Assembly (NCBI GenBank): GCA_021234155.1
Contig: JAJEKV010000010.1
Span: 17,641,418 to 17,705,417 of the forward strand
Length of the DNA: 64,000 bases
Direction: 5' to 3'
Origin: Isoetes taiwanensis
Taxonomy: Eukaryota; Streptophyta; Lycopodiopsida; Isoetales; Isoetaceae
Shown here: one piece after another, positions 29,396-63,852 of the stretch
How the letters are laid out: the number at the start of each line of letters is the position of its first letter
Position numbering within the stretch: position 1 is the first letter of the stretch
Notes under the pieces: model-generated
Told to the model about the DNA's origin: nothing
The model's input: the letters and a program-made list of their open reading frames with translations, nothing else
Database searches by the model: none
Translations under genes and position numbers: made by a program

Positions 29396-29620
29396 AACAA
29401 CTCACCACTCACCAGACCACACATACCTCATCTATCATTCTGGCATCCATTGCATGAAATGCCCCACAGATGGCATCATAGAGAAACATGATAATACAGC
29501 CAACATGATGCAAAATGGGAGTAGACATACCTGATTCTTGAAGTGGATTTGATGTTACCTTTTCTGTGTTGATAGAAACAATCTAGGTCAAGCTTGAGAT
29601 TTTTTTCTGTTGTAACACAA

Positions 29621-39681: not shown

Positions 39682-41329
39682 TGTGACGGTCCAGGGGAAT
39701 ATACGCCATAAATACGTATATTCCTGGATCCATCACCATACAAGTCTATCTTCATAGCCTTGTATACCATAGATTGTGGCACTAGGGGGCATGGCTAAGT
39801 TATTCTCATAACTTAGCCAACCATAGGTTAAGCCATTATCCACGTGGCCTTAACCTATTGGGGCACCGCCACACAGGACTCACCCGATTGGTGCCACGTG
39901 GCATCCTAGGTGGACCTAACTCATATAGGCATAAACCCTAACCCTAGACCTCTTTCCAGCCCTAGCACCCAGAGACTCACCTACTCGTTCGAAACCCCGT
40001 TTCGAACATCGTTTGCTGTGGCATAGACTGGTGCAGCAGCCCCAGCAGGGTAGACTCGTTCTTGGAGTAGGAGCGGCATCTCGTGAGTCGGAGACCATGG
40101 AGGCACACGGATCTGGAGGGAGAGCTTCAGGAGCAGGTATGTAGGATAGTGGTTGTGATAGCTCATCTGGAAATTAGCATTCCAGATATGCTAGTATTTG
40201 TATCTAGAGTAGAGCCATCCTAGAACCCATATTCAACATCTTGAACCCTAATCAAGGAACCCTAACTATTAGTTAGATTTGTATGATTAGGTTAAGATGT
40301 TCTTCTTATGATTATTCTCATGATGTGATGATTATGTGATGATGGTTGATCATGTTTGCTCCTCTTGTATTGGGAAGGGGGGTAGAGACCTAGAGCCATA
40401 TGTAGTATGCTCCTAGAGTAGATCCCTTAGTTCCTATTAGTTGCGGCCTGTGCATAGGAGCCCACCCGTGGCTATTGAGGCTATGATATGACTCAAAGAC
40501 CATATAACGGGGGCTAGAGGGAGGCGGAGGGAGGATCCCCGCCGAGTGGGGGCCGGGGGATCCCATAGTGGGCTAGGCTTATGGTGGTCACTTAGGTGTG
40601 GGCCGAGCATGGGTCCGACACCTCCTGGGGCAATGGTGTCGCCCTGCCTCTCGAGAGCTGCAAGTGTTGGCTTGGCTCTCGTTTTGGGGGGTTAAGTCGG
40701 GTACGAATCGTGTGTCGCCACGATTCTCTAGCCGCCCACGGAACCTCTAGACCACAGGAAGGGAGATGCAACCCTTCCCCGCCTCATCGGACGAGGGAGA
40801 TGCAACACGGAGTAGTCCCGATGGGTGATGCCATGGGATTGCGTATCCGGAAGGCTAGAGTCATGCCAGAGCCTGATTTAGCCCATCTGCAAAGTATGCA
40901 CAGGAGGGGCGGATGGAGTGGTCAACCCTAGCCATTGTTCTATGCCAGCCCTCGCCATTGCCATGACTCGGTGCCTCTCTATCTTGAGGCCCTAGCCGGT
41001 CGGTCATCCTCCTTACAGTCCGAGCGGGGTAGGAGCTCTCATGTTTTATGGTTCGTGATTATCATCTTTGCCTTGGTTTATGAGTGATGCACTACCCTTC
41101 GAGGTAGTATTTGTATATGTTGATGCTAGTTCTGACGTGTTATCGCTTCCGCTGTTATAGGAGCCCATAGGGGAAGGGCGCGCAAGACACCTTCGTGTTC
41201 CCTTCCCGCACTAAGAGTCACCTCGAGTCGCGGGGGTAGACAGGCAGGGCCCATCGCGGTTCTTGAGCCGATGGGGATTTCTGCCGAGTGTCACGGCCGG
41301 CCGCGTCGCGTTTAGCAGGGAGCGTCACA
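39682..41329 (+). repeat. Element 1, 5' LTR (1,648 bp)
   Basis: It starts TGTGACGGTCC and ends GGGAGCGTCACA, and matches 51,799-53,437. It contains a double telo-box AAACCCTAACCCTA at 39,933-39,946, downstream of TCATATAGG. Differences from the 3' LTR cluster at CCWGG and CAG/CTG sites; elsewhere long stretches are identical, which suggests a young insertion. Parts (for example GTATTGGGAAGGGGGGTAGA and CACAGGAGGGGCGGATGGAG) are shared with the LTR of element 2. Confidence 0.92.
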
Positions 41330-41330
41330 A

Positions 41331-41342
41331 TGGTATCAGAGC
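41331..41342 (+). other. Primer-binding site, initiator tRNA-Met type (element 1)
   Basis: TGGTATCAGAGC starts two bases after the 5' LTR end. It is the standard complement of the 3' end of plant initiator tRNA-Met used to prime minus-strand synthesis. From 41,343 to 41,902 there is non-coding leader. A TATA-like TTTAAATA lies at 41,808-41,815, about 90 bp before the first accessory start codon. Confidence 0.92.
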
Positions 41343-41902
41343 GATGTTCTTGGTTGACCAAGAACTAGCACTGACCATAACCATGAAGTAGTCTAACAGG
41401 CCTATAGGGGTGTGAAATAAACATTTCCACCATTGAACCGCGAAAATGGGGGAAAAATTTTTTCTCCTAGGTAGTGGGTCAGGAATTAGGCTAAGTGTTA
41501 GACGAAGATTTGAGTGAGTCAAACGAACCTTCTAGTAAATTTGGAGTGAAAATTATGCATCTGCATCAAATTTCACCTAAAATGGGTCGAAGAATCATGC
41601 CAATCGGAGACCCAGGTGAAAAATGGCGCAAATTCATAAATTGCACTTCGAACCATTAGGAAAATTCGAAAATTTAAGATAATATCAATTAATATAGGTT
41701 AATATATACATCAATAGTTAAATAATTATTAAATATCTTGTAATTAATAAGGGGGGCTAATAAATAGGGGTAATTATGGTAGGAGAATATTCCCAGGGAC
41801 CCTCCTTTTTAAATATCTGACACCTCATTTTCTCTCTCCAACCCTTCACCTCCAACTCTCTCTTGCTCAGCCTTTCGTCACCCATTTTCTGATCCATAAG
41901 AT

Positions 41903-42985
41903 ATGGCTCGCACCAAACAAACCTACAGGAAGTCTGGACCAAGACCTACCCTCTCCATGGCGCAGGCAGCAGGGCGACATGTGAAGAAGATCCCGGAGCA
42001 CCTCCGACCCAAGAAAGGGGAAGAGGAGCTTCCCCCCAGCAGCAGCAGCGGCGGCGATACGTATCATGATGCCGAGGAGAGCCCCAGCAGCAGCTCGTCA
42101 TCGGGAGGCACACAGAGAACAGATGAGTCTCGCCACTTTGGGGCCACAGACACCGAGGTGGAACAAGAGGTGGAAGAGCAGGTGCAGCAGCAGGTGGAGG
42201 AAGCGGGGCCTTCAGTGCCCAAAAAGAAGGGAAAGGAAAAAGTAGCAGAGTGGCCGGAGGAGAGGGCCGCTAGGAAGAAAAGGGAGAGAGAGAGGGAGCT
42301 GAGGGAGCAAGAGCGACGGACGAAGAAGAGGAACGATGGCCCTCGCCGGACCATCGTTATTGATGAGCCTCCCGGGGAGGAAGAGGAGCAGAGGGCGGGA
42401 TGAAGAAGAGGAGGAGGAGGGGCAAACAGGACCCGGACGCTTAGGCCACCCTACCCCCAGTGGCGGAACCACCTAAGGTGGTGAAGAAGCAAAAAGGTAG
42501 GGAAAGCGGGCATTCAGCCCAGCAGGACCGCGAAGTTTAAAGGGAAGATGGTGGCATACAAAGAGTACCTTCGTCGTTGGACGAGGTACAATGAGTGGTA
42601 TTGCCGCCCGAGGTGTGCAACCGTCAGGGTGGGCGCAGCAGTCAAGAAGAACTAGCCCAAGCCACCCCCACCCAGGGCGGAAAAACCCAAGAGGGTTCAC
42701 CACGGGCTAACAAACGCATCGCTTTGGTGTTTAGGAGATTGGCACTTCGGATGTGCACGAATCTCCCGATAAGGAAGGCGCCCTTGGCGTCTCCTTAGAG
42801 GTGTTGCAGCGATTCGGACCCGATTATAGGGTTACCCCTCTAATGACCCGGGCCCCGCAAGAGGCTTCGAAGCGAGCTGGTCCAGCTCTTGAGGAGGGAA
42901 ACCTCTAGCTATCCATGCTAAGCGGGTAACCCTTATGCCCAAGGATATTCACTTAGCACGGGAGGATCCCAGGGGAGAGGCCCCT
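41903..42985 (+). pseudogene. Element 1 histone H3-like accessory gene
   Basis: The ATG at 41,903 opens with MARTKQTYRKSGPRP, matching the histone H3 tail (ARTKQTARKS). It continues with GRHVKK and HLRPKKG where H3 has GVKKPHRFRPG. The 166-codon frame then becomes a Ser/Glu-rich and basic linker and stops at 42,403. Further frames carry the histone-fold half: LPIRKAPL (about 42,765; H3 has LLIRKLPF) and AIHAKRVTLMPKDIHLAR (42,908-42,961), which differs from canonical H3 at two of 18 residues. At least three frameshifts separate these parts. In effect the H3 tail and H3 fold are separated by a linker of a few hundred residues. In the cell such a protein could enter nucleosomes or mimic the tail for chromatin readers; neither is shown. 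Confidence 0.8.
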
Positions 42986-43793: not shown

Positions 43794-45334
43794 ATGGCCC
43801 GGCAACTTTGAGAGATGGTACAATCTTTGCCCGCCATATCCATCAGCTTCCAGTAGATCAAGCCTTCTCTGTGTTTGATCACTTGTTTGATCTTCACGCA
43901 ACTTTGACTAGAACACCCTACTACACGGACATTATGTGCCAATATGACCAGCAGGTCCTGCCTTGGGAAGTTAGACTGCCTCCTAGGGGAGGGAATTGGG
44001 TTTCTCTTGAGACACTTACCCAAGCCTTAGGTCGAGAGTTGGCGGGGATCCAAAGGCAAGAAGCGACTATGGGATAGGACTAGGACCATGCCCGATTACA
44101 TGACCCTGGAGACATAATAGGCATAGGTACCTTTCAAAGCGAGCGACCCTTGCCCTCTTCATGCACTATAAGTCAATCAACAAAGTAGGGGAACCCTCTG
44201 TTCAGCCCTTAGACTTAGCGCCACTTGATACCCGTAGAGCCCAGGATCAAATCCTGAATATAGAGTCCTCCGCCTACGAATACTATGGCACGACGTCAGG
44301 AGCACCATCTCTACAGATCCATGAAGACTACGAGCAGCTAGGGGAGCGGGGAACCCAAAATGGGAGAGCGAGGAGGCAACAAGAATGCGGAGGTATGCGT
44401 TGAGGCATGACGACGGCGTGAAACGACTCTGGAAGCCCACCGGTCGGCATCACAAATTTTGTCACCGATAGTCATCGGCCGGGGAGGAGTACATTTTTGC
44501 GAATGACATCCTCAACTTGTCCCATCTTGTCGAGAACAGGGTCTCCTGGATCGATGAGCTCTTGGGCATGATAGCACACCGGAAAAGCACTGAGACCTCA
44601 TCGACTACTCATACCAGAGATCCCAAAGGAGTCGGAGAGACACTCTTATCTTTGGGGAGACAATGTCCGGATATAGCAGCCTATCGCCAGATAAGGGAGA
44701 TCTATCGGCCAGCTAGGAACCTATCATCTCGAGAGGAGGAGTTCCAGCAGATCTGAGCACACTCTACAAACCCGGGGGAAGGGCCCAAGCTCAAGCCGAC
44801 CCGGTCGAGCCAGGAGCATGAGGAAGGGTCCAGCAGGCATCAACTTGGACAATGCAACCAAAGATGTGGAGGGATCATGAAGACCGATGGCGGTGGATGC
44901 CTACGGTGAAGCGGCTTCGGCCGGAAGGGCACCTTTGATCGCGGCGTAGGGAAGGGCCGCGACGCCGCTACTATCTTCCAGACCCTCGGCCAAGGGCAAA
45001 TGATAGTCTTCCACAAGGAGTTCAGCCCAAGGGGAAGAATCCGTGGCACTTCTCATAGCACTTTCGGGCCGGGCAGCACTTTTCGAAGATATCGCCCATG
45101 CCGATCACATCATTCTTTTCAACAGGCGTCGCTCCATTGCCTCGACTTTTCGCGAGAGGGCACCTTAGGGGCGCAACACTTTCGGTGGTAGCGAATGCAA
45201 CGACGAACTTCCGAACCGGAGATGGCAGAGCACTTGAAGGAAGATCGACGAGGAACATCTTGCGCAACCTCGGCAAAGGCCTCCGATTCGGGGATGTCAA
45301 GAACTTCTTGGGGCTTTTCGGAGGCCATCAATAA
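43794..45334 (+). pseudogene. Element 1 second accessory gene (ORFb), decayed
   Basis: It starts ATGGCCCGGCAACTT at 43,794. Shifted frames give QAFSVFDHLFDLHATLTRTP (about 43,860), then VLPWEVRLPP, then near the end KEFSPRG (about 45,005) and LRNLGKGLRFGDVKNFLG (about 45,265-45,320). These align in order with ORFb of element 2 (NHIFRLFRKEIDVQATLNATP, RKFSPRGEEGVFM, VLRNLGHSVGTAQVKKFL). Many small indels break the frame. I recognise no domain, and its role in the element is unknown. Confidence 0.6.
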
Positions 45335-45553
45335 TTGTGAAATTTTCTTAAGTTTTGTGCTAAATGTTTAGGTGTACCCATTATGCTAAGATATATCTAC
45401 CTTATCATGTAATCCTTATGTATTAATGACTATTAACCTGTTTTGTCAATGTAAGGCTTTGTATGATTTCTTATAACTAAAGATAATTCAATTGCAAGTA
45501 AAATTGATCAACATCTAACCCAAATAAAATGTATTGATGATCAATCCTTGCAG
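45335..45553 (+). promoter_or_regulatory. Element 1 intron-like stretch ending in a splice-acceptor-like site before gag
   Basis: An AT-rich stretch follows ORFb and ends AATCCTTGCAG at 45,553, immediately before gag-like coding sequence that has no nearby in-frame ATG. Element 2 has the same arrangement (TTGTGTATGCAG at 61,471). This suggests that gag is translated from spliced RNA. Confidence 0.45.
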
Positions 45554-46900
45554 CAAGGGAACTCAAGTCACGGGGATCTCAAGATCAGCACCGACCACGC
45601 AATTGGGTACCAAGGAACTTGTTTGGCGGAGAACGGGGAAGACTTTGAGCGGATATGTCACGAGGCTCAGTCCAACGCAAGGTTGGTGCGGATGAGGAAC
45701 CGTGATGCAACACCTCATGAACTGGGCGACACCTCTCATGAATGCACAGGAAGATGGTCCTCCACCTCCACCTTGTTTTCCGGGTGGTGACGAAGTCCCT
45801 CAGCAGGAAGGGGAGGGCAACCAGGGGAACGTCAGGGATAGGAGAAGGAAGAGGAGAACCAGGAGTCCATCATCATCTAGCTCCAGCTCATCAGATAGCT
45901 CTTCCAGTGAGGACAGCTCGCTCCGGCGGTCGGTCGGGCACACCTAAAAGCAAGGAAAAAGAGCAAGAAAGACGGATGACTATCGAGAAAAAAGGTGGAT
46001 AGTGCTATGAGCAATGTATGGAAGACAAGGAAGCTCGGCCGGTTTTGGGGAAAGACAGTCGGGCATGGAGGTCGAAGCATGGCTTGATGAAATGGAAGAA
46101 TTTGGCAACTCATACGGTATGAAAGACAAGGACATAGGGAAAGTTGCTACAGCTAACCTTATTGGACCGGCAAGGATCTGGTGGAAGGGATATGCTAAAT
46201 CCAACAAGCTGAAGAGGAACAATTGCAGGTTTAAGACCTTCAGCAAGGCTTTCCGCCAAGCACTATGTGCCAAGGTCTCATACTAGTAGGCGGTTCAAAG
46301 CAGTTTTCTGAGTTGAATCGGGGTAGCTTATCGGTGGCTAAGTATACCAGAAGAATTTATGAGGCTCAGACTGCATGTTCCTGAAGTCTCAGAGAGGCGA
46401 GCCGTGGATACTTACATTGAGGGGTTGAACATCAATATCAAGAGGCTTGTTAGAGCAATCAACCCGAAGTCAGGTTACTGGTAGAAAGATAAAGCTATAA
46501 GTTTAGAAGAGGCACCGGCAACTCCAGCGAGAGAAGCGATCAACCTTCCGGGGGTAAGAGTTCAGGCGTGCTCGGGGACAATATCGGGGGTAAGCAATCA
46601 GCAGCTACACCATCAGGGAGTCAGCAGCAAGGTAAGGGTCAGAGCAAAGCTTTTGGGGACCGTAAGCCACAGAATGCATCAGGGGGCAGCGCTCTTAAGC
46701 ATCTCCTAGACAGGCATGCGAAAGGAAAAGAGACAGAATGCATTGAGAAAAAGCTATGTTTCAGTGCTTCCAGCCGAGGGCACGAACACCACGATTGTCC
46801 ATTAAGTCATGCGGTCGACCTTGGCGAAACTCTTGGATTGGGACTCCCCAAATGAAGCGGGCGAGGGCGGCGACCCGGCGGGGAGGGCGAGGACTTCATA
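45554..46900 (+). pseudogene. Element 1 gag
   Basis: Capsid-like sequence: an N-terminal segment with an Arg-rich and Ser-rich patch (RRKRRTRSPSSSSSSSSDSS, about 45,840-45,900); the capsid core MEVEAWLDEMEEFGNSYGMK (about 46,060) and ARIWWKGYAKS (about 46,165), the retrotransposon gag signature; and the nucleocapsid zinc knuckle near 46,757-46,800 (CF...GHEHHDC). The knuckle is broken by paired lesions: TTCAGTGC where element 2 has TTCAGGTGC, and CAGCCGAGGGC where CAGCCAGGGC is expected. Gag packages the element RNA. It is interrupted by frameshifts, some probably consensus errors. Confidence 0.75.
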
Positions 46901-48860
46901 GATGGTGAGTGCCACATATGTGCAAACATTGAGACGGTGATATAGAGAATCGATCAAGCTGTCATCGGCTGCGAGACGGGGATCATAGATAGTAATCCTT
47001 ATGTAGTCCTCATAGATACAGTAGCTCTCATAATTTTGCATCTCCTAGATTGGCTGCTCTAATGAAGAACAAGGTATTGAAGTCTAAGCCAAGGCCAATA
47101 GCTATGGCAAATGGCCCATTCGCACACACTAAGGGAGGAGGATCACCTTTGATATAGACCTTAGTGGGGCTAAGTGGTGTCGATGGGAGCAGAAGTCATG
47201 GACATCGGGAAGATATGATCCGATAGTGGGGATGGAATTTTTGAAGCCAACAAAGCCATGATTGATTGCGCGACGGAATGAAGTCACCATGACGGCACCG
47301 GATGGCGACAAGTTGATAGTGAAAGGTAAGAAGCTAGATTCTCCCTATGCGGTGCATTTCTTTGAAGCGACTAAGGAAGAGTATAGAAAGGAATAAGGTG
47401 GATTACATCTTGAGGATGGAATCGGTTGAGCCGAACAAGCGGGATGGAAGTGACCCAAAGAGAAATCAGTTGCCCGAGCGGATAGCAAGGCTTATTTCAG
47501 AGTTCAAGGATGTATTTCGGATGAAATCCGGCAGCTACCAATATAGGGATGTGGAATGTGAGATCACATTGGCTCGGGATCTTGAAACCTACCAAAGAAG
47601 GCGCATATAGAATGAGCACCCGAAATTGATTGAGCTCAAGAAGCGGCTTCGGGAATTGCTCGAGCTTGGATTTATAAGAGCAAGTGTGTCTCCTTTCCGA
47701 ACACCTATACTCTTTGTGAAGAAGAAAGATGGGAGCTTAAGAATGTGCTATAGACTATCGCCCGGCTTAATAAGCGCACGATAAAGAACAAGTATGCATT
47801 GCCAAGGGCGATGATCTAATGGACCGATTACAAGGAGCAAAGGTATTCTCTAAAATTGATTTGAGGTCGATACCATCGGATAAGAATAAAAGAAGAGGAT
47901 ATCCACAAGACCGCTTTCAGAACGCGGTATGGTCATTTTGAGTTTACAGTAATGCCCTTTGGACTATCGAATGCTCCAGCAACGTTTATGCGCCTCATTA
48001 ACGACATCTTCAGAGACTTCTTGGATGAGTTTGTTATTGTCTTCTTCGACGACATCCTAATCTACAGCAAGTCCCTTGAGGAGCATTGTCAGCATCTCAG
48101 GAAAGTGTTGGAGAAGTTGAGACGTCATCGGTTGTATGGGAAGCTCTCTAAGTGCCACTTTGCAACATGCCGAGTGGAGTATTTGGGGCATGTAGTAACG
48201 TCCGAGGGAATCTCCACAGATCCATCTAAGATTGAGGTAATAGTTGATTGGCCAGCTCCAAGGAATGTGGCAGAAGTAAGAAGCTTTCTCGGGTTGGCGG
48301 GATATTACAGAAAGTTCGTGAAGGACTTTGCTAAGTGGGCGTCCCCTCTGTCGGACCTCACTAAGGCCAAGAAGATTAAGGATTGGGCTAGCCATTGGTT
48401 AGAGAAAGTCCAAGCTTCTTTTGAGAAGCTTAAAGAGGCCTTAACAACAGCACCAGTGCTTGTTCTCCCGGATCCGAGTAAAGATAAGTTGGTAGCAACA
48501 GATGCAAGCAAGATAGCAACAGGGGCAGTCTTGATGCAAGAAGGAAGGGTAGTCGCCTACGACTCGAAGAAGATGAACGACGCCGAGCAACGCTACCCAA
48601 CCCATGATCAGGAGCTGCTAGCCATTGTCAGGGCATTGAGGATATGGAGGCATTATCTGCTGGGAAGGAAGTTTCAGTTGGATACTGATCACGAGCCTTG
48701 AAAGATCTTTTCACCCAGCCCCTCCTCAACTTAAGGCAAAGGAGGTGGATGGAATTCCTTGAGGAGTATGATTTTGATATTATATATAAGCCTGTAAGCT
48801 TAATGTTGTAGCGATGCCCTCTCGGGAGACCATTTCGGACAAGGGCGCATTGTAATGTCG
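46901..48860 (+). pseudogene. Element 1 pol: protease, reverse transcriptase, RNase H
   Basis: A protease remnant (VLIDT near 47,005, followed by a lost base in CAGG) leads into the RT. It shows [12 protein letters not shown] (about 47,710), an eroded FSKIDLRS (about 47,850), [20 protein letters not shown] (about 47,910-47,960) and the catalytic [13 protein letters not shown] (about 48,030-48,065). [18 protein letters not shown] and the connection follow, then RNase H with [16 protein letters not shown] (about 48,490), [14 protein letters not shown] and LDTDHEPLK (about 48,680). The frame from 47,952 to 48,701 is uninterrupted. RT and RNase H copy genomic RNA into cDNA in the particle. Upstream frameshifts near 47,745-47,880 coincide with CAG motifs changed to CG or CGG. 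Confidence 0.88.
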
Positions 48861-50353
48861 ATTTCTACTCTTCGAGTGAGTTTGGCAAGAAGATTGAGGA
48901 GTCCTTGCCAACGGATGTGGACTTCAAGGAGGTATGGGAAAGTCTTTCCAAGGAAGCGAGCAGCAGATAAGGAGCGGGAAGCCTTCAAGCATTATAAGAA
49001 GGAAGGCAACTGTTGTATCACAAGCATAAGTTATGTGTGCCCGAATCATCGGGGGTAAGGAAGCTAATTCTTCATGACACACATAAGACCCAATAGCGGG
49101 GGCATCTTGGCTTCATGAAGACCTATTTCAAGATTCAAGTAGCTACTTACGGCCGAGAATGAAGAGGCGGATAGCTGCATATACTCGAGATTGCCCGGTT
49201 ATGTCCAGCGAGACCAAAGCGGAGCAACCGGTTCAGTGTGCTCTTGAGCCATTGGGGTGCCAAATGCAAAGTGGGAGGTCATAAGCATGGATTTCATCAC
49301 GGGTCTCCCTAGAACTCTTGAGGCAAGGATGCATTGATGGTTGTCGTGATAAGTTATCTAAGATGGCACATTTTGTGCCTTGCAAGACTCTTGACACCGC
49401 ATTAGATCTTTGCCAAGTTATTTGTAAGGGAGATTTTCAGACTCCATGGCATGCCTCGGGAGATAATATCGATAGGGATTCCAAGTTTATGAGTGCCTTA
49501 CGGCAGGACCTCTTCAGCACCATTAGGGACCGAAGCTCTCCATGAGCCGCGGCATATCATCCCCAACGGATGGCCAAGCGGAAAGGGCGAATCGGATCAT
49601 TGAAGACATGCTTGAAGCTATGTGTGGAATAAGCGGTCCAAGTGGGATGAGTACATCCACTTGGTGGAATTCGCCTACAACAAGATTACAAGCGAGGAGT
49701 CATCTCGGATGTCTCCTTTCATGGTAAATTACGAGTACCGATTGCTTAACCCGGATACACAGCACAATCCGTGTCCAAGGTAGAAGTATCCCAAAGAGAT
49801 GTTAGGGGATATGCAGCAGCTAGTGGAAGAAGTAAGGGGTTATTTATTGGCGCAAGAAGTCGGCAGAAGAGTGTAGCCGACAAGCCTGGGGGACCGTAAG
49901 AGAATTCAAGGTAGGCGATAGCGTCCGGTTGAAGATAAAGGTGAAGCAAGCCAAGGCTGCGGATTGGGAGCTGCAAGAAGCTTGCCCCTAGGTGGGCTGG
50001 TCCGTTCAAGATTTTGGAGAGAGTGGGCTCTCAAACCTACAAGTTGGATCTTCCAGCCCATCTCAAGGTTCACAAGGTCTTCCACGTAAGTTTATTAAAA
50101 GGCACAATCCTAACCCCGAGGAGGTTTTGGATACTCCAACCTTGTTGGAAATGACCTGAGGAGCAAGTAGAAATAGTGCACTGAATTGCTTCTTGATAAG
50201 TCATTCAAGAAGACTAGGAGGTCTCAGTTCCTCCAATATTTGGTTAAGTGGAAGCACTTACCCGTGGAAGATCACGACATGGGTATTGAAGCAAGACTTG
50301 GAGAAGCAATACCCGAGTTTATGAAGCGGTTTGATGGGCGAAGCGTCTCCTAA
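48861..50353 (+). pseudogene. Element 1 pol: integrase and chromodomain
   Basis: In shifting frames: the zinc-binding region with RKLILHDTH and MKTYFKIQ (about 49,055-49,140) and CPVMSSETK, where CPVCQR-type sequence is expected; the catalytic core with MDFITGLPRT (about 49,290), DRDSKFMSALRQDLF (about 49,465-49,510, second Asp) and TDGQAERANRIIEDMLEA (about 49,570, catalytic Glu); the GPF-like region (RWAGPFKIL, about 50,000). Finally YLVKWKHLP at about 50,230, with TTWVLKQDLEKQYP and FMKRFDGRSVS, forms a chromodomain ending at TAA 50,351. Chromodomains in this branch bind methylated H3 and steer integration toward heterochromatin. The sequence is heavily indel-marked. Confidence 0.82.
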
Positions 50354-51788: not shown

Positions 51789-51798
51789 AAGGGGAGAA
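51789..51798 (+). other. Polypurine tract (element 1)
   Basis: AAGGGGAGAA directly precedes the 3' LTR start TGTGACGG at 51,799. It is the usual primer for plus-strand DNA synthesis. Confidence 0.85.
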
Positions 51799-53437
51799 TG
51801 TGACGGTCCAGGGAATATCGCCATAAATACGTTATATTCCCTCGATCCGTCACCATACAAGTCTATCTTCATAGCCTTGTATACCATAGATTGTGGCACT
51901 AGGGGCATGGCTAAGTTATTCTCATAACTTAGCCAACCATAGGTTAAGCCATTATCCACGTGGCCTTAACCTATTGGGGCACCGCCACACAAGGACTCAC
52001 CCGATTGGTGCCAATGTGGCATCCTAGGTGGACCTAACTCATATAGGCATAAACCCTAACCCTAGACCTCTTTCCAGCCCTAGCACCCGTGAGACTCACC
52101 TACTGCTTCGAAACCCCGCTTCAACATCGCTTGTTGTGGCATAGACCGGTGCAGCAGCCCCGCCCAGGTAGACTCGTTCTTGGAGTAGGAGCGCATCTCG
52201 TGAGCTCCGGAGACCATGGAGGCACACCTGGATCCGGAGGGAGAGCTTCAGAGCGGTATGTAGGATAGTGGTTGTGATAGCTCATCCGAAATTAGCATTC
52301 CGATATGCTAGTATTTGTATCTAGAGTAGAGCCATCCTAGAACCCATATTCAACATCTTGAACCCTAATCAAGGAACCCTAACTATTAGTTAGATTTGTA
52401 TGATTAGGTTAAGATGTTCTTCTTATGATTATTCTCATGATGTGATGATTATGTGATGATGGTTGATCATGTTTGCTCCTCTTGTATTGGGAAGGGGGGT
52501 AGAGACCTAGAGCCATATGTAGTATGCTCCTAGAGTAGATCCCTTAGTTCCTATTAGTTGCGGCTTTGTGCATAGGAGCCCACCGGGCTATTGAGGCTAT
52601 GATATGACTCAGCACCATATAACGGGCTAGAGGGAGAGCGGAGGGAGGATCCCCCCCGAGGGGGCTTCGGGGGATCCCATAGTGGGCTAGGCTTATGGTC
52701 GGTCACTTCGTGTAGGCCGAGAATGGGTCCGACACCTCCTGGGGCAATGGTGTCGCCCTGCCTCTCGAGAGCTGCAAGTGTTGGCTTGGCTCTCGTTTTG
52801 GGGGGTTAAGTCGGGTACGAATCGTGTGTCGCCACGATTCTCTAGCCGCCCACGGAACCTCTAGACCCTGGGAAGGGGAGATGCAACCCTTCCTGCCTCA
52901 TCGGACCAGGGAGATGCAACCTGGAGTAGTCCCGATGGGTGATGCCATGGGATTGCGTATCCGGAAGGCTAGAGTCATGCCAGAGCCTGATTTAGCCCAT
53001 CTGCAAAGTATGCACAGGAGGGGCGGATGGAGTGGTCAACCCTAGCCATTGTTCTATGCCAGCCCTCGCCATTGCCATGACTCGGTCTGCTCTATCTTGA
53101 GGCCTAGCCGGTCAGTCATCCTCCTTACGAGTCTGAGCCGGGGTAGGAGCTCTCATGTTTTATGGTTCGTGATTATCATCTTTGCCTTGATTTATGAGTG
53201 ATGCACTACCCTTCGAGGTAGTATTTGTATATGTTGATGCTAGTTCTGACGTGTTATCGCTTCCGCTGTTATAGGAGCCCATAGGGGAAGGGCGCGCAAG
53301 ACACCTTCATGTTCCCTTCCCGCACTAAGAGTCACCTCAGAGTGCGGGGTAGACGAAGGGCCCATGCGGTTGCTGAGCCGGATGGGGGATTGTCGAGTGT
53401 ACGGCCGGGCGCCGTACGTTTAGCAGGGAGCGTCACA
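51799..53437 (+). repeat. Element 1, 3' LTR (1,639 bp)
   Basis: It starts TGTGACGGTCC and ends GCGTCACA, followed by the target duplicate CAAAA. It is collinear with the 5' LTR. Telo-box AAACCCTAACCCTA at 52,051-52,064. Typical differences are CATCTGGAAATT (5') versus CATCCGAAATT (3'), and TTCCAGATA versus TTCCGATA. Confidence 0.92.
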
Positions 53438-55139: not shown

Positions 55140-56721
55140 TGTGACGTTCCAGCACAGTATACGGTCCCAGGACGTATACTGTACTGCCTCGTCACGCGTA
55201 CACGCCACCCCGACTGACGTGTACGCCGACGTGTAGCCAGGTGGGTAGCCCCTAGGGGGCAACTTGCCAGGTGTGTGCATTTATTATTAATGTGCACATT
55301 TACCAATGTGCACATTTATTAAGGTGCACACCTTTCCATGTGGGCACATTTTGCCACATAGCCATTAAAGGTAAGTGGGCCCATTCCCAATTATCCCACA
55401 TGCCTAAAGGGGATAATTGGAAACCCTAGCTTACCCCCTTGTCTATTTAGGAGGGGAAACCCTAACTTGCCCATTTTTCGTTTCTAGGGTTTTAGAGCTC
55501 TGTTTTGGCTGCTCCAAGAGCCAAAACAGCCTCCCAGACTCTGTCTGAGAGAATTGCACCATTAGTTTCCCTTGATTCGAGCATTTTAGCAGGATGGTCG
55601 AACTCAGGACAGGAGGAGGAACTCAAGGATCAGGTATTTCGCCAATTTAATAGCCTAAACCATCATCTAGTCATTGAATCAGTAGGTTTAGCCTATTAAA
55701 TTGCCCATAGCAGCCCTCTAGATCTCTAGATATCAGACTCTAACTAAAGAACCTAACTCTATGATATAGATTAGATATAGTTCTTTAGTTCTTCTGTGAT
55801 GTATATGGATGATGTGCCTCTATGAACTCCTTGTATTGGGAAGGGGGGTAGAGACCTAAAGCTTGGTAGTAGATGCTCCTAGATTAGCCTCTCTAGCACA
55901 CTATAGATTCGGCCTGTGCACAAGAACCATACCTGGTTGTGGGTGAAGGGGCCAGACTGGCTTATAAGGAGGTTCGTGTTCTGACTCTTGAACGATCCCT
56001 CTGGTGTGTAAGGCCTACCGGGGATCATTGTAGACTAGGTCTAATGGTTTGCCACTGAGTGTGGGCAAGGCATGGGCTCGACACCCGTGGGGTGATGCGT
56101 CACCCTCCATTGGGTTCAAGTCGAATACGGGCAGTGGCCCTCTAGTCACCTTGAGTCAGCATGTAGATCTCTGGAGGGAGTGATCCCTACCTGCCCCATC
56201 GGGACTGGGGAGATGCAACCCAGGAATAGCCCCTTTGGCTATGCACCCGGCGGGCTATAGTCAGGTCCCAACACTTTTCAGCCTACTCTACAAAGTGTGC
56301 ACAGGAGGGGCGGATGGAGTGGACAACCCCAAGCCATGTTCTTATGCCAGCCAAATCCATTGCCATGAATTCTGTCTGCAATGAACTCTGGAGACCCAAG
56401 CCGTCAGTCACCCCTTTGAGTCTGAGCCTTGGGTAGGATTTTCCATATGTATTATGCTGATCTTTGCCTATGCAGATGTGATGGACCACCCTTCGAGGTG
56501 GATATGTGATTGTGTTGTATACTGACATGTATGTCTACGCTTCTGCAGCTAGGTAGACCCTGAGGGAGACGGGGTAAAATGGCCCCTTCATTCTTCCCAC
56601 TGGGGACCCAGTACGGTCTCAGTGATATATGGAGGGCCCTGTATCAGTGTGGAGCTGGTATGGGGGATGAACTCCTGTTTGTATACGGTGCGGGCATCGT
56701 ATACGAGTAGGGGACGTCCCA
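55140..56721 (+). repeat. Element 2, 5' LTR (1,582 bp)
   Basis: It starts TGTGACGTTCC and ends GGGACGTCCCA, directly followed by the PBS. AAACCCTAG and AAACCCTAA telo-box motifs lie at 55,421 and 55,457. A TATTTAGG stretch near 55,444 could serve as the TATA region. There is no second copy in the window, so the boundary rests on the TG...CA ends and the PBS. Confidence 0.85.
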
Positions 56722-56722
56722 G

Positions 56723-56734
56723 TGGTATCAGAGC
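56723..56734 (+). other. Primer-binding site, initiator tRNA-Met type (element 2)
   Basis: TGGTATCAGAGC starts two bases after the LTR end, the same primer as element 1. Confidence 0.92.
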
Positions 56735-56921
56735 AATGTTCTTGGAGACCAAGAGCAAAGCACTGGCCATGCTCCCAGTAGTACTAACTTGATAGGATCC
56801 TTAAACCTCGAAAAATGGGAATTTTTTTTCCCATTTTTGTAGTTTATGCTAAGCTAACAGTTAAAATGAATGAAAACATAAAAAGACTAAAATTGGTGAG
56901 CCAACCTTCAAAAATAGGGTG

Positions 56922-56988
56922 GTCTCACACGTCGCGCCAGGACAGATAATGAGAATCTCATTTTCGGGCTGGGCGCAACGTGTGAGAC
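56922..56988. repeat. 67-bp hairpin, copy 1 (element 2)
   Basis: Bounded by GTCTCACACGT and its complement ACGTGTGAGAC, with a further GC-rich stem (CGCGCCAGG against CTGGGCGCA) and a short AT-rich centre. Copy 1 of 4. Confidence 0.88.
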
Positions 56989-57135
56989 ATTCAGCTTGAA
57001 ACACACTAAAAAGTCATGAATTTCAGCAAAGTAACTTGATAATTCAGATTTTAAGCTAGGATTAGCTAGAATTAGTATGTTACATTTCTAAAAACATACT
57101 TAGAAAGTATAAAATTTAGCAGCGGGACCCACCAT

Positions 57136-57202
57136 GTCTCACACGTCGCGCCAGGACAGAAAATGAACTTTTCATTATCGGTCTGGGCGCAACGTGTGAG
57201 AC
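57136..57202. repeat. 67-bp hairpin, copy 2 (element 2)
   Basis: Same ends and stem as copy 1, starting 214 bp downstream of it and 78 bp before a TATA box. Confidence 0.88.
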
Positions 57203-57279
57203 CATGCTTGAATTTAGGTGTTCTAGGTGTTCCAGATGACCCAAAAAGGTAGTTTGAAATTTGACCTAAAATCGACCCC

Positions 57280-57287
57280 TATAAATA
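57280..57287 (+). promoter_or_regulatory. TATA box before the element 2 H3-like gene
   Basis: TATAAATA lies 106 bp before the ATG at 57,393. The leader between them contains GCTCTCGTTTGCCAAGGCG and GATCTTCTGG. A similar leader (GCTCTCGACTGCTTAGGCG, GATCTTCTAG) follows the TATA box at 59,247, so the two accessory genes share a promoter-leader design. Confidence 0.6.
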
Positions 57288-57392: not shown

Positions 57393-58645
57393 ATGGCCCG
57401 GACAAAGCAGACTGCTAGGAAGCCCCGCCGACGCGAATCTTCCAGCGCCAGTGACCCCGCCCTTTCAGAGGATACTCCAAGAACGCCTTTTCCAGCAAGG
57501 CGAATCTTCATCCAGTGAGGAGGCAGACTCGGACCAGAGCAACAGGACAGAGGTCATAGGAGAGGAGCAGCCGGATGTCATGCACCAGATCCTCGAAGAA
57601 ATCGCCGAGGAGGAAAGGAGGAGCAAGGAGGAACGGGAGCAGAAGGGACAGCCGACCGTCGAGGAACAACTCGAAGCTTGGGTCCGTCTGCAAGAAGCTG
57701 AGGAGAGGGAGGAGCAGCGGCAGCCGAAGCTTAGCCCCGCTGATGAAGAAGACCTCGCGGCGTTCATCAGCAAGTATGAAGCCAAAGAGCGCCGCCGAGA
57801 GAGGAGGACAAAGAGACGGGAGGACGAGCCAACCACAGCCGGCGAGCCGAAGAAGAGGAAGGCCAAAGGCATTAAGGCGGGCAAGAGAAAAGTTGTGATG
57901 GTTGGTAAGCGAGCGAAGGGTCCCGTCATCAATGAGCCATCAGGCGAGCAGACCCCGCCTTCTACCGATGACTCGGACGAAGATTACGGTCCCCAACACT
58001 GAGGGGACGAGCTCTTCGAAACCCCCGGTCATGGAGAAGGAAGTACCTGAGCAGGTGGCACCTGAGCAGCAGCCGCCCGGGCAGGCGCCGAAGCCCCCAC
58101 CGTTCCCGACGTGGGATAGGGTTAAAGCCCCGCAGCCACAACGAGAGGCATACGTGATAGACCCCGTCAAGGTCTATCAGAAGAAGATCAGGGAGCACAA
58201 CGCCTACATGGCGAAGTGGGAGGCATACAACGCTTACTACCAGGAGCACAGGGTGAGAACAATTGAAGGTGGACATCCGACAAAAAGCCAGACCCTGAGG
58301 CCGCCGCCACCCAGGCCCAAGCCCCCTAGAGCACTAGGGAAGAAGCGAACCGGCAGGAAGCAGATGGAGCAGAGAGCCCTCAAGGAAATCCGGCACTTCC
58401 AGCGAAGTTATGGATTACTAATTCCCCGTGCACCCTTCCAGCGCCTAGTCCGAGAAGCCATGCAGGAGTACAACACAGATATGAGGGTGGCCGACGAAAT
58501 GTTGCTGTGCCTACAGGAGGCAGCAGAGGCAAAACTAGTGCAGCACTTTGAAGATTCGACGGCCTGCACAGTTCACGCGAAGAGGGTCACGCTCATGAGA
58601 CAGGATATGCATTTGGCTAGACACATCAAGGGAGAATGCCCTTGA
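57393..58645 (+). CDS. Element 2 histone H3-like accessory gene (H3 tail, long linker, H3 fold)
   Basis: ATG 57,393 starts MARTKQTARKPRRRESSSAS, identical to the H3 tail through K9. A one-base shift near 57,450 moves into the linker frame (57,451-58,002), with acidic, Gln-rich and KKRKAKGIKAGKRK-type basic parts. A second shift near 57,980 leads to a Pro-rich segment and the H3 fold (about 58,366-58,642). The fold shows RALKEIRHFQRSYGLLIP (H3: VALREIRKYQKSTELLIR), FQRLVREAMQEYNTDMR, LLCLQEAAEAKLVQHFED and VHAKRVTLMRQDMHLARHIK. About 417 codons in all if the two shifts are errors; canonical H3 has 136. TATA box upstream and TGA at 58,643. Likely nuclear. It could replace H3 in nucleosomes or decoy H3K4/K9 readers; both are inference. 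A CenH3 origin is less likely, because the tail matches canonical H3. Confidence 0.85.
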
Positions 58646-59368
58646 ACTTCTTGTAAATAATGGAAATTTTTGTTAATATAAAGAAATTTTGAGTAAATAA
58701 TATGTTTAATCTTGCTTAATTAGGTTAAGATATCGATTTCTGGCTTTTGTTTTGGTCAAATTGGACATTTTGAGCAAAATTGAGACGATGTCTCACACGT
58801 CGCGCCAGGACAGAAAATGAACTTTTCATTTTCGGGCTGGGCGCAACGTGTGAGACCATGGCCCAAAAATGCCCAAAACAGCTCCAAATCAACCAAATAA
58901 GGGGTCAATTCTGCCTATCTCGACGAGTCCAATAGGATTAGACCCTTAGATCACTTAAATTGATCAAGTTTAGCCCATTTAGAGCCCATGTCTCACACGT
59001 CGCGCCAGGGCAGAAAATGAACTTTTCATTATCGGTCTGGGCGCAACGTGTGAGACCTCTAAGCATTTTCTTCACCATGCCATATCCAAATGATCTCCAG
59101 TTTGTGCAAGAGGTTCATTAGTTGTTCTTAGCATGCTCAAACCCTAAAAGTAGTCTTCAAATTCTCAATTACACCTCTTAACAGATCAGAATCGCCCAAT
59201 CCTAGTAAATTCTAGGTCATCCAAAAATTAGGGTTTTCCCCTTTTCTATAAATAGGCCCTCCATTTCTCATTTAGCCCCCTACAAATTTGCTCTCGACTG
59301 CTTAGGCGATCTTCTAGCTCCCTGAGGCGCTTCTGCTTCTGTTTGATAGTCTCTTCTCCGCTAGTTCA
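58646..59368 (+). promoter_or_regulatory. Element 2 control region before ORFb: hairpins 3 and 4 plus a TATA box
   Basis: Hairpin copies lie at 58,790-58,856 and 58,990-59,056, exactly 200 bp apart and each 67 bp with ends GTCTCACACGT / ACGTGTGAGAC. TATAAATA at 59,247-59,254 precedes the ATG at 59,369 by 115 bp. An AAATTAGGGTTTTCC telo-box-like site (reverse AAACCCTAA) lies just before the TATA box. An AT-rich stretch after 58,646 may hold the end of the H3-like transcript (AATATAAAG...AATAATATG). Confidence 0.7.
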
Positions 59369-60905
59369 ATGGCCACTGCTGACTTCAGGCGATGGTACAG
59401 CGCCAGCGCCCATGCTGCCGAGGCCGATGTCAATCACATCTTCCGACTCTTCCGCAAGGAAATAGATGTCCAAGCCACTTTGAATGCAACCCCAGCATAC
59501 AGGCAAGTTTTAGCAGAATTCCAAGCTAGGCTAGGACCCTCCCTAGTCCAGCTCCCCCCTTGCATAGGCTATTTTGTCCCCCGCCCATCCCATCAAGCAG
59601 CCTTGGGCGATGTCCCGAACATCGCCAAGTACTTAACTAACAAGGCGCAGAGGCTGCCAGATTACATGGTCCTGACAGTTGACAGGACCAAGTACTTCTC
59701 CTACACCGCCGCTTTAGCCATTTTCCTTTCCCACCGCGCCGAAAACCCAATGGGGGCAACCTCTATTTCTCCCATGGAGGTGGACCCCATAGCAGTCCGA
59801 GCAGAAGAGCAGATGCTTTTGCAGTACGAGCAAGAGCAAGAAGGAAGAGAAGAAGATGAGGAGTGGGACGACGAAGAGTACACCGAGCTAGACTCAGAGG
59901 AGGAACGACGACAAGCAGAAGAGGAGCTGGTAAACTTCGAGCAGAGCCGGCAGAACATCAGAGTTGCTCCCCCACTTGGGCTAGGCATCACAAGCCTAGC
60001 CCCTATCATCATTGACGGAGAGGAGTCTCCCCGAATGCAGAACCTCAGCGACACCCAGAACCTCCCCGAATGCAGGGAGAGGGAGCTCCGATTGGATGAA
60101 CTGCTCCACCAACTACGACAGTCCGACTTGGACGACTTCATCGTCCGGGGAGTCTCAGACTTTCCGCTTCAAGTCAGGGAAGCCGACACCTATACAGGGG
60201 AGTCGACTTCCCGGAGCATCCGTGCCCTACGACAACATCAGGCAAATGATGGAAGCGCGTGAGCTGCCAACGGAGGAGGAGTTCCTCGCCCTCCAGGAAC
60301 AGATGGGGATCCGTGGAAAGACCACGAGCATCTTAATGCCGAGGCCTTCGACACCACCTCCAGCAAGAGGAGCAGGAATCGACCTCAGGCGAGTCGACTC
60401 CACAATTGAAGACTACCGGGAACTCACTGAGGTAGAAGTCGACGAATACGCCGGGCGACATAGAGCTGGAGGCCAAGCAAGTGGAGAATCTTCAGTGACG
60501 CACAATGACAGGTCACTGAGGTACTACCTGCCCCTGCTGCTGGACGGGAGAATAGCGGTAATACACCGCAAATTCAGCCCCCGGGGTGAAGAGGGAGTGT
60601 TCATGCTTATTGCACTCTCAGGCTTTGGCAGGCATGCTCGAATGGCAGCAAATGTCGACTATGCTGTCCTAGTCAAGAGGGCAATGGCACTTGACCTCTT
60701 CGACTTCGCCGTGCCTCATCGACGGCAGGGAAGATTGGCGGTGACCGCAGCCTACACATCCGACCGTAGAGTGGAAGAGTTGGCGAGAGCCTTGCAAAGC
60801 GGCTCGTCAGCAAACGTCCTCAGGAACTTGGGACATTCGGTAGGAACGGCCCAAGTTAAGAAGTTCCTTGAGGACAACCCATCTTACCGGCGATTTCAAG
60901 ATTAG
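59369..60905 (+). CDS. Element 2 second accessory gene (ORFb), unknown function
   Basis: The first frame (59,369-60,262) starts MATADFRRWYSASAHAAEAD and includes a very acidic stretch (EEDEEWDDEEYTELDSEEE, about 59,850). A frame change near 60,200 leads into the second part, ending at TAG 60,905: MEARELPTEEEFLAL, RYYLPLLLDGRIAVIHRKFS, GVFMLIALSGFGRHARMAAN, VLRNLGHSVGTAQVKKFLED. The total is about 510 codons if the shift is an error. No signal peptide, membrane segment or known domain was recognised. The C-terminal 150 residues look globular and are the part best shared with element 1. It has its own TATA box and leader, so it is likely expressed separately from gag-pol. Confidence 0.7.
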
Positions 60906-61009: not shown

Positions 61010-61757
61010 ATACCAACAAACATAAATAATGCAAGAGAACAAGCTAAAACTAACCATATAGCCATGAATTACTTGTGTATGCAGCTAGAGGCCTAGGCTC
61101 AGGGGAACGACAACGCCGAGACAATATGGAAGAACAGAGTCCGCCCAGGCCACCCCCGGCAAGGAACCTGTTTGAGGAATTTGGACCCATGACCCCAGAA
61201 GAGGAAATTCACAGATGAGAACGGACCTTGAGCAGATAAAGGCCCTGCTGGCCGCACAAGCAGGAGCGGGTTCAAGGGGCAACGCTCAGTTGCCTCAAGC
61301 ATCAGCTCGGAAAACAGGAAGGGACAAGAAGAGGAGCAAGAGAAGGAGGTCCTCCAGCTCGGAATCCTCCGACTCAAGCTAACAATTATACAATTATACC
61401 AACAAACATAAATAATACAAGAGAACAAGAAAAAAACTAACCATATAGCCATGAATTACTTGTGTATGCAGCTAGAGGCCTAGGCTCAGGGGAACGACAA
61501 CGCCAAGACCTTAGGGAAGAACAGACCCCGCCCAGACCACCTCTGGCAAGGAACCTATTTGAGGAAGTTGGACCCATGACCCCAGAAGAGGAAATATCAC
61601 AGATGAGGACGGACCTTGAGCAGATAAAGGCCCTCCTGGCAGCACAATCGGAGGGCAACGCTCAGTTGCCACAGGCATCAACTCGGAAAATAGGAAGGGA
61701 CAAGAGGAGAAGCAAGAGAAGGAGGTCCCCCTGCTCGGACTCCTCCGACTCAAGCTC
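61010..61757 (+). repeat. 377-bp tandem duplication across the gag 5' end (element 2)
   Basis: GCCATGAATTACTTGTGTAT occurs at 61,071 and again at 61,448, period 377. Copy 1 (about 61,010-61,386) carries a short deletion (GAAATTCACAG instead of GAAATATCACAG) that breaks its frame. Copy 2 leads into the intact gag. Copies have diverged by several percent. Confidence 0.85.
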
Positions 61758-62451
61758 AGATTCAGACTCCGACTCTGAGGAAGAGGGAGACCAATCCCAA
61801 GACCGAACAGATGGAAGGCAGAGGAACAACACTGATGGAAGGCAGAGGGATACCACAGATGGACGACAAAGGGACACCAGAGCCTCTGACTACCAGAAGA
61901 AGGTAGACTCTACATTGGAAAATGTTTGGAAGGCCAGGAAGCTCGAGCAATTCTCAGGCGAGAACAGGTCAGGCATGGAGGCAGAGGCTTGGCTCGATGA
62001 GATGAGCGAATATGGCAACGCTTATGGTATGAAAGACAAGGATAAAGGCAGAGTGGCAACAGCCAACCTGAAGGGAGCAGCACGCATTTGGTGGAAGGGG
62101 TATGCCAAGGCTCATGGCTTAAGCAGGGATGCTTGCAGGTTCAAGAAGTTCGCTAAAGCTTTCAAGCGCCACTACGTCCCAAGAGAGCACAAGTCCAGCA
62201 TGATGCAGCAGTTCTACAGGTTGCAGCAAGGCAACAAATCAGTCCAGCAATATACAGAGGAATTCATGAGGCTAAGGCTTTATGTGCCAAAGTTGGGTGA
62301 GAAGCATGCAGTGGAAAGCTATATTGAGGGGCTGAATGAGGAGATCCGCAAGCTTGTGAGGGCAATAAACCCTAAGACAGTATCAGAAGCAGAGTCCAAG
62401 GCAATAAGCTTTCAAGGGACGGGACCTCAGAATAGCGGGCAGAGGCAGTAG
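61462..62451 (+). CDS. Element 2 gag, capsid part
   Basis: The open frame runs through a leader ending TTGTGTATGCAG at 61,471 without a nearby in-frame ATG; the first in-frame methionine is at about 61,576. It has an Arg/Ser-rich and DSDSDSEEE patch with three TDGRQR repeats (about 61,805-61,870). The capsid core follows: MEAEAWLDEMSEYGNAYGMK (about 61,975), ARIWWKGYAKAH (about 62,080), FKRHYVP and YTEEFMRLRLYVPKLGE (the retrotransposon gag family). It ends in TAG at 62,449, and the same frame continues directly into the zinc knuckle and protease. It assembles the particle around the RNA. The TAG follows CAG and fits a C-to-T change in CAG, or a readthrough site. Confidence 0.85.
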   Translation: MYAARGLGSGERQRQDLREEQTPPRPPLARNLFEEVGPMTPEEEISQMRTDLEQIKALLAAQSEGNAQLPQASTRKIGRDKRRSKRRRSPCSDSSDSSSDSDSDSEEEGDQSQDRTDGRQRNNTDGRQRDTTDGRQRDTRASDYQKKVDSTLENVWKARKLEQFSGENRSGMEAEAWLDEMSEYGNAYGMKDKDKGRVATANLKGAARIWWKGYAKAHGLSRDACRFKKFAKAFKRHYVPREHKSSMMQQFYRLQQGNKSVQQYTEEFMRLRLYVPKLGEKHAVESYIEGLNEEIRKLVRAINPKTVSEAESKAISFQGTGPQNSGQRQ

Positions 62452-63852
62452 TACTTCCAGGATAAAGGCAAGGCAACAGGAAGTTATAGCCCCAGGGCAG
62501 CCAGTCCAGGCCCAGCTAGAGCCCCATATGGTGGCAACCAAGGGAAGCAGCAGGAGAAGAAGCAGGTGTCCTTCAAGGACAAGCAGGAGGGGTCAAACTA
62601 CTCCAAAACAGTGCGATCCTTTTTGCAGGCTATGCCCAAGGAAAAGAGGCAAGAGTGCATAGAAAAGCAGCTTTGCTTCAGGTGCTTCCAGCCAGGCCAT
62701 AGAACAGCCAACTGCCCCTACGTCATGAGTGCAGCGCCAGCAGAGTTGGGAGATTGGGACACTCTATCTGACGACGACGGCGAGGCAGCCCACGACTACA
62801 TCCAGGGTGAGTGTCATATCTTTGCCGCAATAGATACAGAACAAGCAGAGAGCCAGTATAAGGTAATTTCTACAGTAGGGAAGGCCAAAGCCAAGTCATT
62901 TATAGTCCTGATAGACTCGGAAAGTAGCCATAACTTTGCATCACCCAGAATGGTTGAGATGTTGAAGTTGAAACCACTGAAGTCGAAGCCGAGGCCTGTT
63001 GTTTTAGCAAGTGGGGCAGTAAGGCAGACGGCAGGCAAGAGGATCAACTTCGACATCGACTTGCCAGGGATTAATATCAAAATGGGGGCAGAAGTAATGG
63101 GCATTGGCAAATATGACATGATCATAGGAATGGAGTACCTTGGACCAGCAGGGTCCATCATTGATTGTGGAAAGCGGAAGGTGACCTTCCCAACGCCCGA
63201 CGGCAAGATCATTGAGATCACAGGTAAAGGAGTTGTTCCCATCATGCAGTTGTCTTCTAAGCGGCTGTTCAAGTGCATCAAGAGCGAGCAGGTAGCATAC
63301 ATCTTCAAGCTTGAAATTGAAGAGCCGGAGTCAGAAGAAAGCAAAGAAGACAAGGTGCTCAGCAAGTTGCCGAAGCAAATAGCCCAGTTGATCACGGAAT
63401 TCCACGATCTCTTTCCTGACGAGATCGAGCACCTCCCTCCTTACAGGGGAGTCGAGTGTGAGATAGCACTCGAACCGGGAACGAAGCCGACAAGTAAGGC
63501 TCCATACAGAATGACGACGCAGGAGTTGACGGAGCTAAAGAAGCAATTGCAGGAGATGCTCGACCTAGGCTTCATTAGACCTAGCGTCTCGCCATTTGGA
63601 GCGCCCATTCTTTTTGTTAAGAAGAAGGATGGCAGTTTGAGGATGTGCATAGACTATAGGCAGTTGAACAAGCACACCATCAAGAACAAGTACGCGCTTC
63701 CCAGATCGGATGATTTGATGGATCAGCTTCAAGGAGCAAAGGTCTTCTCCAAAATCGACTTAAGGTCAGGCTATCATCAGATCCGGATAAAGGAAGAAGA
63801 TATTCATAAAACCGCTTTCAGAACGTGGTATGGGCACTATGAATTCACGTAA
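62452..63852 (+). pseudogene. Element 2 pol: zinc knuckle, protease and N-terminal reverse transcriptase
   Basis: In the gag frame after the TAG: nucleocapsid knuckle [14 protein letters not shown] (about 62,674-62,715; perfect CX2CX4HX4C). Protease with [15 protein letters not shown] at about 62,905, where the catalytic D-S-G has Glu for Gly (GAA at 62,920-62,922), probably inactivating. RT fingers follow, with [36 protein letters not shown] and [20 protein letters not shown], and [15 protein letters not shown] (first catalytic Asp, about 63,755). A missing base at about 63,853 (ACGTAATG against ACAGTAATG in element 1) ends the frame. The next frame resumes [13 protein letters not shown] and [13 protein letters not shown] (about 63,935-63,965), up to the window end. 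Integrase lies beyond. Confidence 0.85.

Follow-up and report, generated by a model that had tools for sequence, protein, structure and literature searches.

A Ty3-type, chromodomain-bearing LTR retrotransposon family carrying a histone H3-derived gene in Isoetes taiwanensis

Core histones normally belong to the host, and transposons are what they package. Among mobile genomes, core histones are encoded by Marseilleviridae and Medusavirus, and H4 by bracovirus. The influenza NS1 tail and mammalian EZHIP contain short H3-like peptides through which they interact with readers or writers of H3; to our knowledge, viral histone mimics such as the NS1 tail, and EZHIP, have no histone fold. The elements described here likewise carry a core histone in a mobile genome, but, unlike those large DNA viruses, they are retrotransposons in which only H3 was seen, and, unlike the NS1 tail and EZHIP, their cargo contains a full H3 core.

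Plant LTR retrotransposons with additional ORFs have been reviewed, and capture of host genes in the sense direction is described there (PMC7264820). The present elements resemble them in having an extra ORF beside gag and pol, whereas the cargo here is a core histone with a constraint like that on reverse transcriptase (RT), and the available main text of the review does not contain the word histone. A parallel case is described, in the text available, from orchids, whose Ty3/Gypsy elements have captured and retained a conserved domain, theirs being an m6A RNA demethylase and ours a histone (PMC9289625). Tcn1-like and other chromoviruses from fungi and non-seed plants, some with dUTPase and unknown additional ORFs, share with our elements the Ty3/Gypsy type and the chromodomain, but in the available part of that report histone is mentioned once, for the marks read by chromodomains, and not as cargo (PMC2864245). 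No precedent for an H3-carrying LTR retrotransposon was found in the literature among the matches listed.

We analysed a 64,000-nucleotide stretch of the I. taiwanensis genome (the window), for which a sequence-only reading had proposed a chromovirus-type LTR element whose cargo is an H3 gene in which a long linker separates tail and fold. We are highly confident that the H3 elements of the window and their relatives represent a Ty3-type, chromodomain-bearing LTR retrotransposon family with an H3-derived gene between the PBS and gag, kept by selection on the elements.

Two H3 elements in the window

Besides the copy that had been noticed (element 2), the window holds a second H3 element, element 1, which is fully bounded at 39682-53437 (Table 1). 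It has a TG...CA LTR pair, a target duplication, a PBS, a PPT and an H3 ORF, and its LTRs have diverged by a K2P distance of 0.067. The H3 ORF starts with MARTKQTYRK, and the decayed pol region aligns, at window positions 50183-50350, to the chromodomain of L011, a copy from elsewhere in the genome. In RT, element 1 is 66% identical to L011 over the longest late piece.

Table 1. Features of the two H3 elements, in window coordinates
Feature	Position	Strand	Evidence or remark
Element 1 5' LTR (TG...CA)	39682..41329	+	target duplication CAAAA directly before
Element 1 PBS TGGTATCAGAGC	41331..41342	+	
Element 1 H3 ORF, tail and linker (MARTKQTYRKSG...)	41903..42403	+	broken after 166 codons
Element 1 H3 fold remnant (HAKRVTLMPKDIHLAR)	42908..42985	+	tblastn with host H3, E 3.7e-6
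Element 1 ORF2 remnants	43835..45310	+	weak tblastn, 1.1e-5 and 1.9e-7
Element 1 gag, PR, RT, RH, IN and chromodomain region, decayed	46047..50350	+	tblastn with L011 gag-pol
Element 1 3' LTR (TG...CA)	51799..53437	+	purine tract AAGGGGAGAA before, target duplication CAAAA after
Element 2 LTR-like region, ending just 5' of PBS	55830..56721	+	blastn pieces to element 1 LTRs, 40364-41122 and 52481-53236
Element 2 PBS TGGTATCAGAGC	56723..56734	+	exact match
Palindromic hairpin 1, 5' of H3 ORF	56920..56990	.	DNA fold -24.3 kcal/mol, z -7.5
Palindromic hairpin 2, 5' of H3 ORF	57134..57204	.	DNA fold -25.8 kcal/mol, z -8.1
TATA-like TATAAATA, ~110 bp 5' of H3 ATG	57280..57287	+	
H3 gene piece 1, MARTKQTARK tail and linker start	57393..57515	+	stop at 57516-57518
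H3 gene piece 2, acidic/basic linker, second frame	57451..58002	+	
Linker part common to copies (Y...W.AY..YYQ.HRVR.IEGG.P)	58142..58375	+	tblastn; aligned with L040
H3 gene piece 3, complete H3 fold from alpha-N to C-terminus, third frame	58376..58642	+	Pfam PF00125 8.6e-26; gapless to H3
Palindromic hairpin 3, 5' of ORF2	58788..58860	.	DNA fold -27.2, z -8.7
Palindromic hairpin 4, 5' of ORF2	58988..59058	.	DNA fold -24.3, z -7.9
TATA-like TATAAATA, ~120 bp 5' of ORF2 ATG	59247..59254	+	
Element 2 ORF2, two frames (59369-60262, 60012-60905)	59369..60905	+	clear matches to L049, L050 and L051
Element 2 gag	61462..62451	+	PF03732 2.9e-18, PF19259 2.9e-16
Element 2 zinc knuckle, protease and RT start	62566..63852	+	PF00078 6e-12, PF08284 7.5e-8; pol goes on in L009

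For element 2, the evidence for LTR retrotransposon ends consists of the PBS and the 5' LTR similarity only; we take this PBS to be of the initiator-Met tRNA type. The start at 57393 indeed reads MARTKQTARK in the window sequence, and a Pfam search, which the sequence-only reading had asked for as a check, identified the C-terminal H3 fold at 58376-58642 (PF00125, E 8.6e-26). The single ORF from tail to fold that had been proposed does not hold for this copy, where the gene lies in three frames with a stop at 57516-57518 and where the third open frame (57902-58645) comprises a Pro-rich stretch and the fold, but it does hold for another copy of the family, L040, with 388 aa.

The locus L009, whose position 1 corresponds to window position 63583, continues element 2 beyond the window. 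It contains an integrase and a shortened chromodomain match (E 0.00046) that, at 20.5 bits, is below the Pfam cut-off of 25.1 bits. The 5' end of element 2 found no match in L009, and we thus claim no 3' LTR for this element. At L009 4000-4850, the expected place of its 3' end, the sequence resembles, by eye, an antisense copia-type polyprotein. The start of the element 2 gag is duplicated in tandem (61075-61334 and 61462-61710), so that gag residues 1-83 recur upstream with 74-87% identity. Elsewhere in the window, ORFs at 53490-55144 and 14959-15543 resemble, by eye, pieces of LINE endonuclease and reverse transcriptase, and 28841-29491 is a repeat-rich, low-complexity stretch with spurious-looking ORFs.

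Cargo types and element organization across the genome

We searched the plant's own assembly (1.658 Gb), whose H3 we judge to be plant-like, with the exact MARTKQTARK pattern, permitting Ser at the two Arg codons. This gave 1051 matches, host H3 genes among them, and none for the reversed pattern. Three matches lie 5.8 kb apart on one strand of contig C217 (120970, 126779 and 132560) and represent a tandem array, either of host H3 genes or of elements. From 100 listed places, we took 20 tail-chosen copies, excluding any place that fell on host H3. An H3 fold followed the tail at E <= 1e-5 in 18 of the 20; L038 and L048 had no downstream fold at this threshold, L038 having a short motif. The linker motif in Table 1 was found just before the fold in 14 of the 20 (tblastn, E <= 0.01). 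These copies define the type A protein, consisting of H3 residues 1-9, then ~280-320 new residues, and then the H3 core. It is encoded as an uninterrupted single protein of 388 aa in just one of the 20 copies, L040 (histone fold, Pfam 2.4e-21), the other 19 being broken.

Because these copies had been chosen by their tails, a second sampling was made from the fold side. The fold motif VTLMRQDM, not present in the host H3 sequences examined, gave 1047 genome matches and none when reversed. Among the first 100 listed, on contigs where the tail list was also complete, 24 were preceded on the same strand, at a distance of 1147-1438 bp, by an exact tail, against 0 in the wrong orientations that served as control. 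When 20 of the other 76 were sampled, 12 proved to have a decayed tail with 6 to 9 of the 10 residues, and each of these outscored all of its 20 shuffles; among the remaining 8, 4 look frameshifted by eye and 4 showed nothing in the 341 bp fetched. The narrow tail-to-fold spacing, with a control of 0, led us to reject a chance association or separate pseudogenes. The same spacing and L040 contradict separately inserted processed pseudogenes, which the sequence-only reading had named as the outcome that would speak against its proposal. In L017, positions 188-946 contain a second, internally deleted type A element with an element 2-like 5' end and an H3 fold remnant, the tail between them being absent.

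A histone profile search of the genome returned 8704 first-look candidates. The best 150 were scored and were all over the cut-off, and the top 15 of these cover nearly the whole profile, like ordinary H3. From those with long open frames among the 150 scored we took 19 loci, which constitute our type B sample (for example, L026:4494-5843 on the minus strand, L011 and L020). Their stop-to-stop frames of 444-494 codons encode a new N-terminal region, in which three subtypes can be told apart by eye, then a basic stretch and, from about HRYRPGTVALREI onward, H3; the H3 tail is absent and is replaced by some 300-350 new residues. No relative of the N-terminal region was found among the candidates scored. 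About 0.5-0.7 kb 5' of the type B frame, the PBS was exact in 12 of the 19 loci and had one mismatch in another, while none was found in 6.

The order of parts in the family is PBS, H3 ORF, ORF2, gag, and pol with a chromodomain. Eleven loci were tested for gag and pol, six of type B and five of type A (the two window elements, L049, L050 and L051); gag lies 3' of the cargo in all 11 and pol in 10, the loci being cut. The Ty3/Gypsy order of Ty3_capsid, RVP_2 and RVT_1, followed by RNaseH, H2C2 and rve, was found in L011, and a Ty3/Gypsy order also in element 2 with L009. The type B locus L011 encodes a chromodomain over the cut-off (PF00385, E 6.6e-8), as expected of a chromovirus. RT identity to L011 is 86% for L049, 91% and then 40% for L051, 48-55% for L050, and 94% and then 73% for L009. 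The proposal of a chromovirus-type element whose H3 cargo contains a long linker is thus supported by the bounded element 1, the gag and pol counts, the intact L040, and the genome-wide co-occurrence of tail and fold.

ORF2, of 440-500 aa, lies next to the H3 gene (e.g., L014, L023, L025 and L026). One kind is found 3' of the type B frame in 18 of the 19 loci, L011 being without it. The link between the ORF2s of types A and B is weak, with matches of about 1e-6 in two of the six type B loci tried (L023 and L026), and the ORF2 of element 2 likewise matches that of element 1 weakly. A known family for ORF2 was sought and rejected: the five ORF2s tried gave no Pfam match over the cut-off, and a PDB sequence search gave no match at E <= 1. 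A model, of poor quality, weakly suggests a winged-helix part. Two ENA proteins are 38-40% identical to the type B ORF2, indicating that the partner gene also occurs outside this data set.

In element 2 and L051, the H3 ORF and ORF2 each have two 70-bp near-perfect palindromes ~200 bp apart and TATAAATA 110-122 bp before the ATG. The stretches upstream of the two ORFs are alike (~60% in global alignment; 72% over 285 bp), and the four palindromes of element 2 fold much more stably than shuffled sequences (z -7.5 to -8.7). L050 has the palindromes and TATAAATA before ORF2 only, and neither L049 nor element 1 showed the exact motifs. None of the 19 type B loci has TATAAATA 5' of its H3 frame; two of them (L016 and L023) have one just after the frame. 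The palindromes are possible promoter or binding elements, and the arrangement suggests that, in one group of type A elements, a promoter was duplicated and each cargo gene has its own.

Identity and conservation of the H3 core

The fold of the window copy matches H3.3 best in the PDB (E 3.6e-27). It aligns without gaps to H3 from alpha-N through alpha-3, with complete alpha-N, alpha-1, L1, alpha-2, L2 and alpha-3 and with H3 loop lengths. R69, R72, R83, C110, H113, R116 and D123, which we take to be H3-H3 and DNA contacts, were all found in it. The cargo thus has an H3 fold and lacks the normal 36-residue tail, in which K4, K9, K14, K27 and K36 adjoin alpha-N; tail residues are kept only at 1-9 in type A, and none in type B. 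AlphaFold models were poor, with mean pLDDT values of 53.5 and 41.5, and support nothing.

Like host CENH3/CENP-A, the cargo has a long divergent N-terminus, and its residues KEIRHF, LLIP.AP and VTLMR.D presumably resemble plant CENH3, but it is without the longer loop 1 of CENH3. An assignment of type A as CENH3 was rejected, since the loop-1 insertion is absent (the alignment is gapless in L1) and no CENP-A occurs in the best 60 PDB matches, which are all H3, including one H3.Y for L040. In a tree of 86 core positions, with three outgroup sequences, type B formed one group (89/82) beside host H3, and type A formed a weak group (74/53) away from it. Given this weak support, type A may have a CENH3 origin, and there may have been one or two H3 captures. 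When the 388-aa protein was searched against other organisms, 2104 proteins were returned; none of the 12 examined from the best 120 was cargo-like, all being gene models that contain at least two stretches of ordinary H3 and, in one case, H2A. Scans of viral contigs found no cargo relatives.

Selection was assessed by Nei-Gojobori estimates. In type B, the median dN/dS of the H3 core was 0.030 (77 usable of 171 pairs, median dS 0.73), compared with 0.038 for RT (11 of 28 pairs), 0.122 for ORF2 (65 of 153 pairs), 0.131 for the basic stretch (84 of 171 pairs), and 0.142 for the N-terminal domain (58 of 171 pairs); many of the dropped pairs were saturated and others too close, and a sample of best histone scores and long frames favours conserved cores. 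Pooled dN/dS from pairs with dS 0.02-0.4 was 0.066 for the core (13 pairs), 0.181 for the basic stretch (11), and 0.235 for the N-terminal domain (3). Retaining all pairs gave pN/pS values of 0.106 (type B core), 0.127 (RT) and 0.452 (ORF2). Over 86 core codons, median pS was 0.87 within type A, 0.76 within type B and 0.90 between type B and host, with pN values of 0.196, 0.086 and 0.104, respectively. The H3 cargo thus appears to be preserved about as strictly as reverse transcriptase, and hence probably serves a genuine purpose for the element. For type A, most copies of which are decayed, 21 tails encode one decapeptide in 21 distinct DNA spellings (crude median pairwise pS 0.73), these tails being sequence-chosen. 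About 31% of nonsynonymous sites differ between type A and host H3, so that entry of type A into the host nucleosome is not assured.

Possible roles of the cargo

Strong constraint on the entire H3 core suggests that all of its surfaces are used, that is, pairing with H4 and with DNA. The sequence-only reading had offered nucleosome loading, H3-tail mimicry and guidance of integration as options, and conservation of this whole core, and not of the tail alone, favours nucleosome entry and assembly. On the likeliest reading, to which we give an even chance, the element H3 protein would pair with host H4, and H3-H4 with the element protein would enter nucleosomes on the element's own DNA. The N-terminus displayed there would be made by the element and would be without H3 residues 10-36, and hence without K27 or K36; this replaced tail might change the silencing marks or act as a tether for the integrase complex. 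The chromodomain of related elements reads H3 tails, and the exact H3 residues 1-9 of type A also point to engagement of tail readers or writers. More tentatively, the family might build its own chromatin: its insertions would have nucleosomes of replacement H3, with an element-made N-terminus, and host H4. Host silencing could not place its normal marks on these nucleosomes, and they may be recognised by the chromodomain integrase of the family. An H3 core about as strictly conserved as RT suggests an advantage for a selfish element in providing a nucleosome part of its own. This opens tests of how transposons escape or steer H3K9/H3K27 silencing, of the origin of H3 variants, and of whether chromodomain elements that read histone tails also make their own.

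We regard it as rather unlikely that the cargo acts chiefly as a decoy, in which the free ARTKQTARK end of type A would bind H3K4/K9 readers or writers and draw them from or to the element, with the fold as a chromatin anchor. The nine tail residues are exact across copies with different linkers and widely different codons, as such a role would predict. S10 phosphorylation is the usual switch of the H3 tail, and all 20 tail-chosen copies have a residue other than Ser at position 10 and have therefore lost this switch. However, those 20 tails were picked by the exact-tail pattern, element 1 has Ser at position 10, and type B is without such a tail, yet its H3 core is even more conserved.

A role in targeting seems unlikely as well. 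Here, host chaperones would load H3-H4 dimers containing the element protein, and its N-terminus would recruit the integration complex to newly assembled chromatin, in keeping with a family that encodes a chromodomain (in L011, and shortened in L009) along with the type A H3 tail. Very unlikely, in our view, is a function outside nucleosomes, in which the basic H3 fusion would condense nucleic acid, either cDNA or RNA, inside the virus-like particle, or help nuclear import: the cargo ORF does lie on the gag side of the element and a basic region precedes the fold in type B, but such a function has no obvious need for strong constraint across the histone-histone and histone-DNA surface. That captured H3 fragments are carried as passengers without function is hardly credible, for, although most copies examined are broken, as old insertions would be, both types keep a conserved core despite near-saturated synonymous sites, the copy number is large, and the core dN/dS is comparable to that of RT.
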